Source: an uncultured Bacteroidia bacterium
GTDB lineage: Bacteria; Bacteroidota; Bacteroidia; Bacteroidales; UBA932
Direction of reading: 5' to 3'
Assembly (NCBI GenBank): GCA_902790635.1
Contig: CADASN010000005.1
Location: forward strand, 31,986 to 95,985
Length of the DNA stretch: 64,000 nt
The notes beneath the pieces are model-generated. The model worked only from the letters and a program-made list of their open reading frames with translations. It was not told the DNA's origin and searched no databases. Shown here piece after piece: positions 54,176 to 58,057 of the stretch. Position numbers and translations under genes: made by a program. Position 1 is the first letter of the stretch; every line of letters starts with the position of its first letter.

Positions 54176-54949
54176 TTATTTCCTATTGACCGCCAGATAG
54201 TCCCGGACTTCATGGCGGTGGCTGTCTCCGACGGGGATGTGCGTCCCGTCATCGAGGGTGATGCCGCTGGCGCCCGTCACGCGGATCCGGTCGAGGTTGA
54301 CGATGTAGGAGCGATGGACGCGCAGGAAGCTCTCCGACGGCAGGCGTGCCTGCACGTTCTTCAGCCGGTCGAGCACGACCAGCGGCTCCGGGGCGTCATC
54401 CAGCCAGATCTTGACATATTCGCTCATTCCTTCGACATAGCGGATCCGGGCGGGATCGATCCGGTACTCCTTGCCCTCGGAACGGACAAACAGCGCTTCG
54501 GCCGCCGGAGCCGGGCGGGCCTTCTGCTCGTCACGCCGGCGGATCTCGGACTCCAGCTCCCGGATGCGCTTTGCCGAGCGGGAAGCCTGGATCCAATAGA
54601 AGATCCCGACGCTGGCGGCCAGCAGCAGCACGCCCAGCAGGATCTCAAACACCTCCGGACGCAGGGGTCCCGGACCGCCGGGTCCACCCGGTCCCCCCGG
54701 CAGCGGGGGTCCGCCCGGACCATCCGGGGGAAATGCCCCGTCGGGCGGCGGGGGGAAGGCACCGTCCGGCGGCATCGGCAGCCGCATCCCCGGCTCCGGC
54801 CCAGCCTGTCCCAGCAACACATAGGCGACAAAGGCTGCGAGCAGGACCAGCGTCACGGCGGCATACGCCCAGGGCTTTCTCTTGCGTACCAGCAAGGGAA
54901 GCGCCAGGAAGCCATGCAGCAGAAGCAGGAGCAGGAAAGCTACGATCAT
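54176..54949 (-). CDS. Membrane-anchored LytTR transcriptional regulator with Pro/Gly-rich loop
   Basis: 257 residues. Helix 1 (about 1-20) is followed by RKRKP, which should be cytoplasmic, then helix 2 (about 28-46). A Pro/Gly-rich segment (about 50-98, repeats of PPDGAFPP and GGPGGPGG) should be periplasmic, and helix 3 (about 102-121) leads to a charged coiled coil (RELESEIRRRDEQ). A C-terminal LytTR DNA-binding domain (about 150-255: RSEGKEYRIDPARIRYVEGMSEYVKIW, SESFLRVHRSYIVNLDRI) ends the protein. No receiver or kinase domain is present, so it would be a one-component membrane regulator. It is divergent from the Cthe_2159-type lipoprotein gene. Confidence 0.9.
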   Translation of the reverse strand: MIVAFLLLLLLHGFLALPLLVRKRKPWAYAAVTLVLLAAFVAYVLLGQAGPEPGMRLPMPPDGAFPPPPDGAFPPDGPGGPPLPGGPGGPGGPGPLRPEVFEILLGVLLLAASVGIFYWIQASRSAKRIRELESEIRRRDEQKARPAPAAEALFVRSEGKEYRIDPARIRYVEGMSEYVKIWLDDAPEPLVVLDRLKNVQARLPSESFLRVHRSYIVNLDRIRVTGASGITLDDGTHIPVGDSHRHEVRDYLAVNRK

Positions 54950-54954
54950 ATTTA

Positions 54955-54962
54955 CAAAAGTA
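54955..54962 (-). promoter_or_regulatory. -7 box TACTTTTG of the LytTR gene
   Basis: TAnnTTTG match on the minus strand with its last base 6 nt before the start codon, so the mRNA leader would be only a few bases. Confidence 0.5.
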
Positions 54963-54985
54963 ACGATTTTTCCCCGACCAACCTT

Positions 54986-55019
54986 CCCGTTTGTTGAAGA
55001 AATCTCCCCGTTCGTTGAA
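54986..55019. promoter_or_regulatory. Direct repeats resembling a LytTR operator
   Basis: CCCGTTTGTTGAA (54986-54998) and CCCGTTCGTTGAA (55007-55019) are identical at 12 of 13 positions and start exactly 21 bp apart, two helical turns. Each contains a match to the LytTR half-site [TA][AC][CA]GTTN[AG][TG] except at the first base. They lie between the LytTR regulator and the divergent lipoprotein gene. Confidence 0.65.
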
Positions 55020-55080
55020 TCGGTCCGGCGCTGGCAGGTGATTTGAAACGGAGTCCGCCGTGACTAAAACCCAAAGCAAT

Positions 55081-56853
55081 ATGAAAAAGACCTTATCTAC
55101 CCTCATGCTTCCGCTGCTGCTTTTGGGCAGCGCCTGCACCGATGACGCCTTGGCGCTGCTGTCCGGTCAGCAGACGGCCGCCACGGACGCCCCCGTCGAT
55201 CCCGCGAGCGTGGACGCGACGATTGAAGACAACTTCACCCTGGATGACGAAGGCGACAACATCGCCAATACCAGCTTCGACCGCACGGTCACCATTGTCT
55301 TCAGCGCCGCCGGCGCCAAGGTCTCTGACGCGGGCAAAGGCATCGTGACCATTGACGGCAACGCCGTGACCATCGACAACACCGGCACCGGCGAAGCTGT
55401 CCGTTTCGAGCTGTCCGGCACCGCCTCCGACGGTTTCCTCAAGATCTACGGCGACAAGAAGCAGGCCCTCGTCCTCAACGGCCTCAACCTCACCAACCCG
55501 AACGGTGCTGCCATCAACAACCAGAACAAGAAGCGCACGTTCGTCGTCGTGAACGGGACCAACCAGCTGGCCGACGGCAAGAAGTACACCCTCACGCCGG
55601 ACGACGAAGATGAGAAAGCAGCCTTCTTCAGCGAAGCCCAGCTCGTCTTCAGCGGCAGCGGTTCCCTGACCGTGACTGCCACCGGCAAGGCCGGCATCAC
55701 CTCCGATGACTACGTGCGCGTACTGAACGGCCCGGCCCTGAGCGTCAGCTCCAAGGGCGGCCACGGCATCCGTGGCAAAGACGCGGTCGTGATCGGCGCC
55801 GGCACGATCGACATCAGCGTCAGCAAGGCCGGCAAAAAGGCGATCAGCTCCGACGGCACCGTCCGCATCGACGGCGGCAAGACCACCCTCAGCGTATCCG
55901 GTGACGTGGACGACTCCGACCTCACCGACCTGTCTTCCTCCTCCGGCATCAAGGCAGACGCCGCCTTCGTGATGAACGACGGCACCCTCAGCATCACCAA
56001 CAGCGGCCAGGGCGGCAAGGGCATCAGTGGCGACGTAGCCGGCCTGATCGCCGGCGGCACCCTCGACATCCGCGTGACCGGCACCAACTACGAGATCACG
56101 GGCGCGGACGCGGTCGGTCTCGAAGACACATCTTCGTCCGCCAAGGGCATCAAGTTCGACGGGAAACTGGTCATCACCGGCGGCAGCATCCAGGTATCCG
56201 CGAAGAACCATGAGGCCATCGAGGCCAAAGGCGAAATGGTCATCACAGGCGGCGACATCTACGCCGTCTCCTCCGACGATGCCATCAACGCCGGCGGGGA
56301 CCTGATCATCAGCGGCGGCCGTCTCTGCGCCTGGTCCACCGGCAACGACGGCATCGACGCCAACGGCGACTGCTACATCCAGGGCGGCCTGGTCTATGCC
56401 ATCGGTTCCGGCAGTCCGGAAGTCGCCATCGACGCCAACACCGAGGAGGGACACAAACTCTACGTCATCGGCGGCACCCTCGTCGCCCTGGGCGGCCTGG
56501 AGAACGGCGCCCACCGCTCCCAGGCCTGCTACGCGGCCGATTGGAGCACCGGCAAGTGGTATGCACTCTATGCGGACGGACAGCCCTTATTTGCCTTTAA
56601 AACGCCCTCTGCGGGCGGAAACGGCCTCGTGGTCTCCACGGCCGGCACTCCTTCGCTCAAAGTCGGCGTGAGCGTCTCCGGCGGATCAACCCTCTTCGAG
56701 GGAATGGGAACCGTCGGCGGCAGCCTTTCCGGCGGCACCGACGTCGATCTCTCCGCCTACACCGGCGGAACGGGGATGGGCGGGCCCGGCATGGGTGGGC
56801 CCGGTATGGGCGGCCCTGGCGGCGGCCCCGGCGGCGGCCCCGGCGGGTGGTGA
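55081..56853 (+). CDS. Cthe_2159-type carbohydrate-binding lipoprotein with Gly/Pro/Met tail
   Basis: 590 residues from the ATG at 55081, which starts a lipoprotein signal (lipobox GSAC, C19). The body is a right-handed beta-helix-like series of short Gly/Asp-rich turns (GGSIQVSAKNHEAIEAKGEMVITGGDIYAVSSDDAINAGGDL), the pattern of the Cthe_2159/DUF4353 family, whose founder binds acidic polysaccharide and calcium. The last 25 residues are GGPGMGGPG-type repeats ending in W. It is probably on the cell surface. I see no TAnnTTTG box upstream; the LytTR-type repeats at 54986-55019 fit activator-dependent expression. Confidence 0.87.
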   Translation: MKKTLSTLMLPLLLLGSACTDDALALLSGQQTAATDAPVDPASVDATIEDNFTLDDEGDNIANTSFDRTVTIVFSAAGAKVSDAGKGIVTIDGNAVTIDNTGTGEAVRFELSGTASDGFLKIYGDKKQALVLNGLNLTNPNGAAINNQNKKRTFVVVNGTNQLADGKKYTLTPDDEDEKAAFFSEAQLVFSGSGSLTVTATGKAGITSDDYVRVLNGPALSVSSKGGHGIRGKDAVVIGAGTIDISVSKAGKKAISSDGTVRIDGGKTTLSVSGDVDDSDLTDLSSSSGIKADAAFVMNDGTLSITNSGQGGKGISGDVAGLIAGGTLDIRVTGTNYEITGADAVGLEDTSSSAKGIKFDGKLVITGGSIQVSAKNHEAIEAKGEMVITGGDIYAVSSDDAINAGGDLIISGGRLCAWSTGNDGIDANGDCYIQGGLVYAIGSGSPEVAIDANTEEGHKLYVIGGTLVALGGLENGAHRSQACYAADWSTGKWYALYADGQPLFAFKTPSAGGNGLVVSTAGTPSLKVGVSVSGGSTLFEGMGTVGGSLSGGTDVDLSAYTGGTGMGGPGMGGPGMGGPGGGPGGGPGGW

Positions 56854-56866
56854 TCCCGGCCCATTA

Positions 56867-58033
56867 TTATTTGATTTCGCTCCGGACGGCGGCCATCATG
56901 CCTTCGACCTGACCCAGGGCGAGCATGCGGCCGTGGAAGCTGTAGCCCGGGTTGTAGCCGACCTTCTCGTCGCCGAGCATCGTTTTGCCGTGGTCCACGC
57001 GCATCGGAAGATTTCTCCCTTCGCGCTCGAAGATGCGTACCAGTTCCACCAGGTCCGCGCGTCCGGCCGTGTGCGGCGCTTCGACGAAGTCTCCGCCCGG
57101 CAGCACGTCGCAGGAACGCAGGTGCACGAAATGCGTGCGCGGAGCGAATTCCCGCGCCATCGCGACCACATCATTGTGCGCGCCCGCAGAGAGCGAACCG
57201 GCGCAGAAGGTCACCCCGTTGTGGAAATCATCCACCGCGCCCAGGATCCAGCGGATGTCCTCCGCGTCGCAGCACAGGCGGGGCATGCCGAACACGGGCA
57301 TGGGCGGATCGTCGGGGTGGATGCACATGCGGATGTCCCACTTCCGGCAGACGGGCATCACGGCTTCGAGGAAATAGCGGAGGTTCTCCCGCAGCTGCGC
57401 CTTGGACAAGCCTGCATACGGCACCATCAGGGCACGGAATTTCTCCACCGGGGAGCCTCCGCCGCCCAGCGGGCCGTTGATGAATCCCTGGGTCTTGGTG
57501 ATGATCGTATCGATGATCTGCGCCCGGTCGGCGTCCGTCGCCGTCCGGTCCAGCGCTTCCACCTTCGCCACCACCTCCGGCGGGAAATCCTTTTCCGCGC
57601 CGGGGCGCGCCAGCACTTTCATATCGAACCACGCGAAGCGGACATAGTCGAAATAGAGCGAGAGCGTGCCGTCCGGCATCGGACGCTCCAGGTCCGTGCG
57701 CACCCAGTCGATGACGGGCATGAAGTTGTAGCAGACCGTGTGGATGCCGCAGCGACCGAGATTCTCCAGGCTCTGGATGTAGGTGTCTATCAATGCATCG
57801 CGCTCCGGTCCGGCGTATTTGATCTGTTCGCTGACGGGCAGGCTCTCCACCACCGACCAGCGCATCCCGGCAGCCTCGATCCGCTTCTGTGTTGCGCGGA
57901 TCTCTTCCTCCGGCCACAGTTCCCCGGGGGCGTACTGGTGCAGGGCGGTTACTACGCCTTCCACGCCGATCTGGCGCATCATCTCCAGCGTGACTTTGTC
58001 GGCAGGGCCGAACCATCTCCAGGTCTTCTCCAT
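56867..58033 (-). CDS. uxuA: Mannonate dehydratase
   Basis: 388 residues from the ATG at 58033 (MEKTWRWFGPADKVTLEMMRQIGVEGVVTALH). Conserved parts include CYNFMPVIDWVRTDL, the metal-binding segment IRMCIHPDDPPMPVFGMPRL with Cys and His ligands, and VHLRSCDVLPGGDFVEAPH. It converts D-mannonate to 2-keto-3-deoxygluconate in hexuronate breakdown, the route for glucuronate freed by GH67 and GH115 about 40 kb away. uxaC, uxuB and kdgK are not in the window. Confidence 0.97.
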   Translation of the reverse strand: MEKTWRWFGPADKVTLEMMRQIGVEGVVTALHQYAPGELWPEEEIRATQKRIEAAGMRWSVVESLPVSEQIKYAGPERDALIDTYIQSLENLGRCGIHTVCYNFMPVIDWVRTDLERPMPDGTLSLYFDYVRFAWFDMKVLARPGAEKDFPPEVVAKVEALDRTATDADRAQIIDTIITKTQGFINGPLGGGGSPVEKFRALMVPYAGLSKAQLRENLRYFLEAVMPVCRKWDIRMCIHPDDPPMPVFGMPRLCCDAEDIRWILGAVDDFHNGVTFCAGSLSAGAHNDVVAMAREFAPRTHFVHLRSCDVLPGGDFVEAPHTAGRADLVELVRIFEREGRNLPMRVDHGKTMLGDEKVGYNPGYSFHGRMLALGQVEGMMAAVRSEIK

Positions 58034-58057
58034 AATAAATGCGTTGGTTGTCTCCGG

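Follow-up and report, generated by a model that had tools for sequence, protein, structure and literature searches.

The window analysed here, a 64,000-nucleotide stretch of a contig from an uncultured Bacteroidia bacterium (CADASN010000005.1, positions 31,986 to 95,985), carries two divergently oriented genes. On the reverse strand (54176-54949) lies the gene of a 257-residue one-component membrane regulator with a LytTR DNA-binding domain, characterized by Pfam, by its relatives in congeners, and by its matches to kinases and response regulators. On the forward strand (55081-56853) lies the gene of its presumed target, a 590-residue lipoprotein of the Cthe_2159 family (PF14262), recognized by Pfam and from its translation. 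The 131-bp gap between the two genes (54950-55080) holds a pair of direct repeats, the candidate operator. Here, we compare this locus with those of related gut bacteria and trace the regulator to a probable origin in a two-component system.

We first considered the domain content of the regulator. Its sole Pfam match at an E-value of 0.001 was PF04397 (LytTR; 54.9 bits against a cut-off of 22.6), spanning residues 162-252 (54194-54466, reverse strand); neither a receiver nor a histidine kinase domain was found at this threshold. Pfam also gave no match to 5TMR_LYT or MHYT (PF03707), and NCBIfam had no match for either the regulator or the lipoprotein. An AlphaFold2 model built from 18 sequences (mean pLDDT 84, pTM 0.48) placed helices at residues 2-21, 26-47, and 98-144 and a LytTR fold at residues 153-255, and hydropathy likewise indicated three helices N-terminal of the LytTR domain. 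Foldseek searches with the model recovered the LytTR domain of AgrA (4xqj_A, TMt 0.82) and a LytTR domain of Bacillus cereus (3d6w, TMt 0.78). The first two membrane helices (54887-54946 and 54809-54874, reverse strand) are followed by a Pro/Gly-rich loop at residues 48-97 (54659-54808, reverse strand), which was modelled with low confidence (block pLDDT of 54-75 over most of it) and which the positive-inside rule, applied to an RKRK stretch, would place in the periplasm. The last membrane helix continues into a charged cytoplasmic helix (residues 98-144; 54518-54658, reverse strand). Predicted helices and a DNA-binding domain thus share one chain that has neither kinase nor receiver. The sequence-only reading of this DNA had described the same arrangement, and Pfam, hydropathy, and the model agree with it, the periplasmic side of the loop being the part that was deduced. 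Full-length relatives of the regulator are present in congeners.

Two predicted operator half-sites lie in the gap on the forward strand, CCCGTTTGTTGAA at 54986-54998 and CCCGTTCGTTGAA at 55007-55019. Direct inspection of the sequence confirmed that they are identical at 12 of 13 positions and start 21 bp apart, as had been noticed from the letters alone. None of 3000 dinucleotide-preserving shuffles of the 131-bp gap contained a 12/13 pair at 21 bp, and 11 of 3000 contained one at any spacing from 13 to 59 bp. When as many as three mismatches are allowed, the 2.24-Mb assembly (83% complete) contains a single copy of the paired site and none of a reversed control pattern. Two direct-repeat half-sites about 21 bp apart represent a LytTR-type geometry; excerpts of the literature, to which all statements cited here by PubMed Central (PMC) number refer, describe canonical LytTR sites as 9-bp repeats spaced by 10-13 bp (PMC11347149) and the spacing in LytTR regulatory systems (LRS) as mostly 12 bp (PMC6193735). 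Two further blocks on the forward strand recur in the 42 loci that could be aligned on the operator: a GGC block (55033-55035), at +14 to +16 from the second half-site, with G/G/C in 36/37/32 loci, and a TTTG block (55042-55045), whose TTG at +24 to +26 appears as T/T/G in 35/32/39. Both are common to most of these loci, one- and two-component alike, with a deviating minority (e.g., L123, L141, L144, and L152). The TTTG block may be a -33-like promoter element.

To compare the operator across relatives, we fetched 100 regions from congeners, 95 around a lipoprotein match and five around a regulator match, which together with the window gave 101 loci. Of these, 23 have a one-component regulator, 32 have a kinase and a response regulator, and 46 have no LytTR gene in the fetched region. 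We scored 111 upstream segments (25 one-component, 39 two-component, and 47 with neither), leaving out that of the two-component locus L139, which was too short. Two copies of CCGTTCGCTGAA, each matching at 9 or more of 12 positions, were found exactly 21 bp apart in 18 of the 25 segments from one-component loci, in 22 of the 39 from two-component loci, and in 2 of the 47 from loci with no regulator; all other spacings from 12 to 44 bp yielded three pairs in total. When the consensus word was shuffled 200 times, an average of 0.01 segments had such a 21-bp pair. Counted by locus, the pair lies upstream of the lipoprotein gene in 40 of the 55 loci with a linked regulator versus 2 of the 46 without one (Fisher p = 3e-13). 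A consensus-free scan agreed: self-matches of at least 11/13 peaked at 21 bp (16/25, 20/39, and 4/47 in the same three groups), whereas no other spacing between 14 and 39 bp exceeded 5, 3, and 3; one of the 25 one-component segments consists of Ns, which score at all spacings. In 400 genomes of the genus, the operator pattern matched 55 sites in 48 genomes and its reversed control matched 7. Among the 30 sites with surroundings to inspect, 26 were beside a lipoprotein and/or regulator match and four were beside neither.

Since loci L116-L210 were chosen by their lipoprotein match, the lipoprotein neighbour there is not independent evidence. Five congener loci were located by their regulator match (L211-L215, in genomes G062, G317, G168, G165, and G305), and the lipoprotein adjoins the regulator in all five, in G317 as a piece of 98 residues only. 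The sequence-only reading had proposed that a one-component membrane LytTR regulator is paired with the lipoprotein through an operator with 21-bp spacing; comparison supports this pairing, and the repeats are conserved between related gaps. Sequence comparison thus supports a regulator-lipoprotein circuit acting through the operator, which one- and two-component loci share and which is generally absent where the regulator is absent.

Separately, a sibling motif, two copies of GTTCGTCGAA at 21 bp, accounts for 6 of the 55 sites, in four genomes that all have the two-component form (G274:C7:87141, which is locus L231, G274:C31, G008:C19, G008:C31, G082:C46, and G228:C42). At L231 it is flanked by a YebC-like frame and a short ATPase-like frame, as judged from their translations by eye. 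It is perhaps the operator of a second LytTR system.

The two-component relatives suggest where the window regulator came from. Two of these loci were scanned with Pfam, and each has two separate adjacent genes, the first for a kinase (PF06580) and the second for a response regulator (PF00072 and PF04397); the remaining two-component loci were classed by their matches to the window regulator. Neither of the two scanned kinases matched 5TMR_LYT or GAF in Pfam. Both halves of the window regulator have homologues in these systems. Residues 2-137 match the kinase of G015 (50%) from its second helix through the Pro-rich loop and the last helix to the charged stretch preceding the H-box. The first and second helices of the window protein align with the second and third of the kinases, the first kinase helix has no counterpart, and the helix at residues 98-144 resembles the kinase segment directly ahead of the H-box. 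Residues 125-253, from the linker through the LytTR domain, match the response regulators of G015 and G089 (67/126 and 68/129), a relationship that alignment and trees bear out. What the window protein is missing is the kinase core and the receiver. These two parts are neighbours in the two-component operon, so the fusion could have arisen by a single in-frame deletion. The kinases of the relatives already have the Pro-rich loop, located between their last two helices; the sequence-only reading missed this and also the probable origin from a kinase and response regulator pair. A close pair illustrates the relationship: the single protein of G019 and the response regulator of G231, which has kinase and regulator, are identical at 98 of 141 positions over the LytTR part, including all of the last 14 residues, and the two are sisters in both the LytTR and the lipoprotein trees. 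Searching the window genome with the G015 kinase, we found no other match to its sensor part; two other matches covered the kinase core only.

Our reading, to which we assign a probability of roughly 0.8, is that the window regulator is a collapsed two-component system that joined the sensor of a kinase to the LytTR domain of a response regulator and kept both operator and target. In the ancestor, the partner of the lipoprotein gene would have been an operon encoding a multi-helix kinase, whose last two helices flanked the Pro-rich loop, and a response regulator with receiver and LytTR domains. This response regulator would have bound a pair of GTTCGCTGAA-type half-sites with 21-bp spacing upstream of the lipoprotein gene. 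The kinase core and the receiver would then have been lost, presumably by the in-frame deletion and in this direction, which would have fused the membrane sensor to the LytTR domain. Operator and target would have passed through the conversion unchanged, and the signal from the membrane helices would now reach the DNA-binding domain by way of a short cytoplasmic helix, without phosphate transfer. The joint probably lies near the pre-H-box stretch; it was placed by reading, because the pairwise kinase alignments continue past it.

Phylogenetic trees place the window regulator among these two-component loci. We built LytTR trees from 22 one-component rows (L119 was left out) and 32 response regulators, with alignments of 115-116 columns, and a tree of the membrane part with 48 of 53 rows. 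Of the 23 one-component loci, including the window, 19 have full-length frames, which were analysed; L119 is truncated at a contig end, the frame of L122 is split, L135 contains Ns, and L212 is without its N-terminus. In the LytTR tree, the six one-component rows of the window clade grouped with eight response regulators (support 95/90, and 95/91 in the initial tree), and in the membrane-part tree the five usable rows of this clade grouped with eight kinases (98/87). A quick tree of the lipoproteins put the window clade beside eight two-component loci (support 94). These are the same eight loci by name in all three trees, the names for LytTR coming from the initial and the outgroup-rooted trees and the genus tree giving their number only. 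The gene dnaE is present in the fetched flanks of all seven window-clade one-component loci, seven of the eight sister two-component loci, and the regulator-free locus L116 of the same clade, and in none of the fetched flanks of the other 86 loci; the window-clade and sister loci therefore probably occupy the same chromosomal site. This concordance bears on the alternative that a membrane segment and a LytTR domain were joined independently from unrelated sources, the two-component systems being merely the solution of other species. Such joining may have a precedent in the known one-component membrane LytTR proteins, CoxC (PMC11347149) and the LRS-like regulators of Bacteroides (PMC6193735), but it would leave unaccounted for that the two halves have their closest kin among kinases and response regulators from one set of eight loci and that operator, target, and dnaE neighbourhood coincide, and we give it hardly any weight.

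The fused gene also appears to be maintained. Four orthologues could be aligned, all with open frames and 64-69% identity, and the window gene differs from three orthologues by 0.20-0.23, 0.16-0.25, and 0.48-0.50 at codon positions 1, 2, and 3, respectively. Because the differences concentrate at position 3, the gene seems to be under constraint at the protein level. These observations argue against the gene being a decaying remnant that has no regulatory role, for which one could point to L122 (7267-8062, genome G223), where the regulator frame is split in two by a recent frameshift or a sequencing error, and to two relatives within the clade that have no LytTR gene at the locus (L116 and L121). 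The operator, moreover, is kept where the fused gene is kept, and G307 and G331, the genomes of L116 and L121, have no operator site anywhere. We regard decay as very unlikely.

To estimate how often such a conversion took place, we counted changes of state on the trees. A single clade of the 22 one-component rows was rejected (approximately unbiased test, p-AU = 0.000365, at a cost of 88 log units), and the supported branches of the genus LytTR tree force at least three changes, so that the state has changed more than once. In the outgroup-rooted LytTR tree, to which 16 GTDB rows were added (14 of them two-component, mostly a Prevotella-type outgroup), supported branches force seven changes and the best tree has eight, with the two-component form at the base. 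The GTDB rows derive from a scan with the regulator alignment. Among the best 80 of its 479 confirmed matches, 34 have the lipoprotein beside the regulator, 30 of them two-component and four one-component, and some of both kinds are contigs of the same genus as the window; the other matches among these 80 are mostly labelled Prevotella or Bacteroidaceae and include the isolates Xylanibacter ruminicola D31d and Prevotella sp. P6B1. One locus outside the genus, L249 (5477-6619, from a Bacteroidaceae metagenome-assembled genome), has a one-component form with a lipoprotein neighbour and 21-bp repeats; in the rooted tree it lies among the outgroup and groups with a Muribaculaceae response regulator.

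The changes counted on the trees are unsigned, and we interpret them as losses of kinase and receiver because regain in place is implausible. One could instead imagine that a single old conversion took place and that two-component cassettes were later exchanged or regained: loci may move between species, and the genus tree forces only three changes and the membrane-part tree two. Regain, however, would require the kinase core and the receiver to be reinserted between the same two halves, the lipoprotein and LytTR trees agree on G019 with G231 and on G149 with G339 and G177, and the rooted tree has its root among two-component loci. A single old conversion is hence improbable in our view. The sensors of the one-component forms differ in size. 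By hydropathy and alignment, four helices are present in L191, L147, and L137, three in the window clade, G218, and G105, and two in G252, G338, G062, and G385; a single hydropathy threshold finds fewer helices than the alignment in L199, L214, L145, L152, and L213. The odds seem about even that, within one Bacteroidales genus and in a single case elsewhere (L249), a two-component system was converted repeatedly by loss of kinase core and receiver, that every conversion preserved operator and target, and that the sensor afterwards shrank from four helices to three and then two about a conserved Pro-rich periplasmic hairpin. If so, the phosphorelay would have been repeatedly dispensable, and the hairpin alone could carry the signal to the LytTR domain.

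Several observations weigh against the collapse of a two-component system, or against its repetition. Fifteen of the 55 regulator-bearing loci have no operator pair at our threshold, one of them, L139, offering no upstream sequence to score. By segment, 24 regulator-bearing segments are without the pair; nine of these precede a second, downstream lipoprotein gene, and among the others at least five (L132, L145, L170, L176, and L203) have a less strict pair of the TTCRYTGA type with the 21-bp spacing. In the Prevotella-type two-component loci, a recognisable pair was found only at L262. Conversely, L183 (10193-12775) and L201 (5489-8167) have the operator before the lipoprotein gene and no LytTR gene in the fetched region, where a regulator may act from elsewhere in the genome. 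The outgroup-rooted LytTR tree adds two more response regulators (L188 and L264) to the eight, and it has few columns for its rows and raised long-branch warnings. The membrane-part tree, with its smaller number of changes, does not pair G019 with G231. A single conversion for the window clade and G034/G106 was not rejected (p-AU = 0.071, for a group chosen after seeing the tree). A separate kinase could sit in the sequence missing from the incomplete window assembly. Finally, kinase alignments run past the joint at low similarity, as for G015 (85/204 over residues 2-239) and also L126, L133, and L139.

The mode of action that we propose for the converted regulator centres on the hairpin. In 18 aligned one-component forms, a Pro-rich loop lies between the last two helices and an invariant Pro-Glu precedes the last helix; because both are kept, the hairpin suggests itself as the minimal sensor. 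The protein would sit in the inner membrane with its loop in the periplasm and dimerise through the linker helix. The hairpin would read the signal, and a change in it would alter how two LytTR domains pair on the half-sites, to which these domains are predicted to bind. The corresponding loops of Prevotella-type kinases (L283, from Xylanibacter ruminicola, and L270, L279, L280, and L255) contain, in addition to Pro, many His, Met, and charged residues, a possible hint at binding of a metal or a polyanion.

The regulator probably activates the lipoprotein gene, as most LytTR regulators do their targets; the fixed spacing of the operator to the TTG block upstream of the start favours this. Repression has a precedent in CoxC, a membrane LytTR protein that represses from an operator overlapping the -35 box (PMC11347149). 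Nevertheless, in most of the 42 aligned loci the operator is fixed 22 bp upstream of the TTG block, which we read as promoter, and most LytTR regulators bind upstream of -35 and activate (PMC11347149); we consider repression the less likely mode here.

Known systems resemble the window regulator in part. Rsp of Neisseria gonorrhoeae likewise fuses the membrane sensor of a kinase (Nps/PilS-type) to the DNA-binding part of a regulator (Npa/PilR-type) at the native locus (PMC10269533, PMC6528607), its target role being disputed between these two papers. However, Rsp is of the PilR (RpoN-activator) type and is described in one species, whereas the window regulator is of the LytTR type and occurs in many species with operator and target apparently kept. 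CoxC (MHYT-LytTR) also sets a membrane sensor directly on a LytTR domain and uses a direct-repeat operator, but its sensor is a seven-helix MHYT domain that detects carbon monoxide with copper, and it acts as a repressor on three repeats (PMC11347149). The excerpt of that paper does not mention descent of CoxC from a two-component pair. We rejected membership of the window regulator in the CoxC-like MHYT-LytTR group for want of a PF03707 match.

Closer in taxonomy are the LRS-like regulators of Bacteroides, which are also from Bacteroidota and have membrane segments before LytTR and direct repeats upstream of the promoter; they differ in being paired with an NfeD/DUF2154 membrane protein and in their 11-bp repeats with an 11-bp spacer and a 22-bp period (PMC6193735). 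An LRS proper, with a soluble LytTR protein and a separate membrane inhibitor gene in one operon, was rejected as well, since the window regulator has its own helices and its neighbours are an isochorismatase-like gene and the lipoprotein gene. The LytS/LytTR systems (BtsSR, PyrSR/YpdAB) resemble the two-component relatives in combining a kinase with a receiver-LytTR regulator. They differ from the window protein, which has neither kinase nor receiver, and from the two scanned kinases in their input domains, 5TMR_LYT being ascribed to all LytS-like kinases (PMC10653868). Transmembrane transcription regulators (TTRs) combine sensor, membrane anchor, and DNA-binding domain in one chain, and their descent from two-component systems has already been proposed (PMC10269533); they are a class defined by architecture, whereas the present case has both states at the same promoter in close relatives.

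The component parts of the system are therefore of known kinds. Searches of PMC literature by title and abstract, together with the excerpts cited here, turned up neither this regulator nor a pairing of Cthe_2159 with LytTR proteins nor a repeated conversion from two to one component; most subscription papers lie outside this literature. As far as it extends, the recurrence of such a conversion at a single promoter whose operator and target were retained would be new.

One-component regulators are usually seen as simpler and older, with two-component systems derived from them. Here, the reverse route may be traced in close relatives in which one promoter is served by either form, and the DNA site provides an internal control. 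It can thus be tested directly whether this promoter gains anything from phosphate transfer, and which part of a membrane sensor suffices to control a DNA-binding domain.

The lipoprotein matched PF14262 with an E-value of 7.8e-49 (166.7 bits against a cut-off of 25.8) over residues 92-401 (55354-56283, forward strand); a sequence search of the PDB returned nothing at an E-value of 0.01. Its start is likely the ATG at 55081 rather than the GTG at 55060, given a signal peptide and LLGSAC lipobox read by eye. The founding Cthe_2159 protein binds cellulose and polygalacturonic acid (PMC6712302), and by analogy the window protein is likely a surface polysaccharide binder. Its translation ends in a Gly/Pro/Met-rich C-terminal tail (56776-56850, forward strand), identified by a composition count. 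The sequence-only reading had suggested that the regulator perhaps senses the lipoprotein, and had noted that this tail resembles the Pro/Gly-rich loop of the regulator in its low complexity. Sensing gained no support from the composition: tails with at least half Gly, Pro, or Met in the last 30 residues are common where there is no regulator (25/47, and 21/40 with the two-component form), although commonest with the one-component form (21/25), and the mean Gly/Pro/Met fraction is 0.58 in one-component versus 0.48 in both two-component and regulator-free loci, so that some link may exist.

In some loci the lipoprotein part is elaborated. A second, longer Cthe_2159 gene (708-1130 residues) follows the first at L123, L124, L130, L132, L133, L135, L141, L144, and L152, and L134 has a long single lipoprotein with a BACON domain. 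In the window, the lipoprotein gene faces a convergent mannonate dehydratase gene (uxuA; 56867-58036, reverse strand). Of the other 100 loci, L128 and L134 alone have uxuA in the fetched flank, so that uronate metabolism beside a putative pectin binder may be chance.

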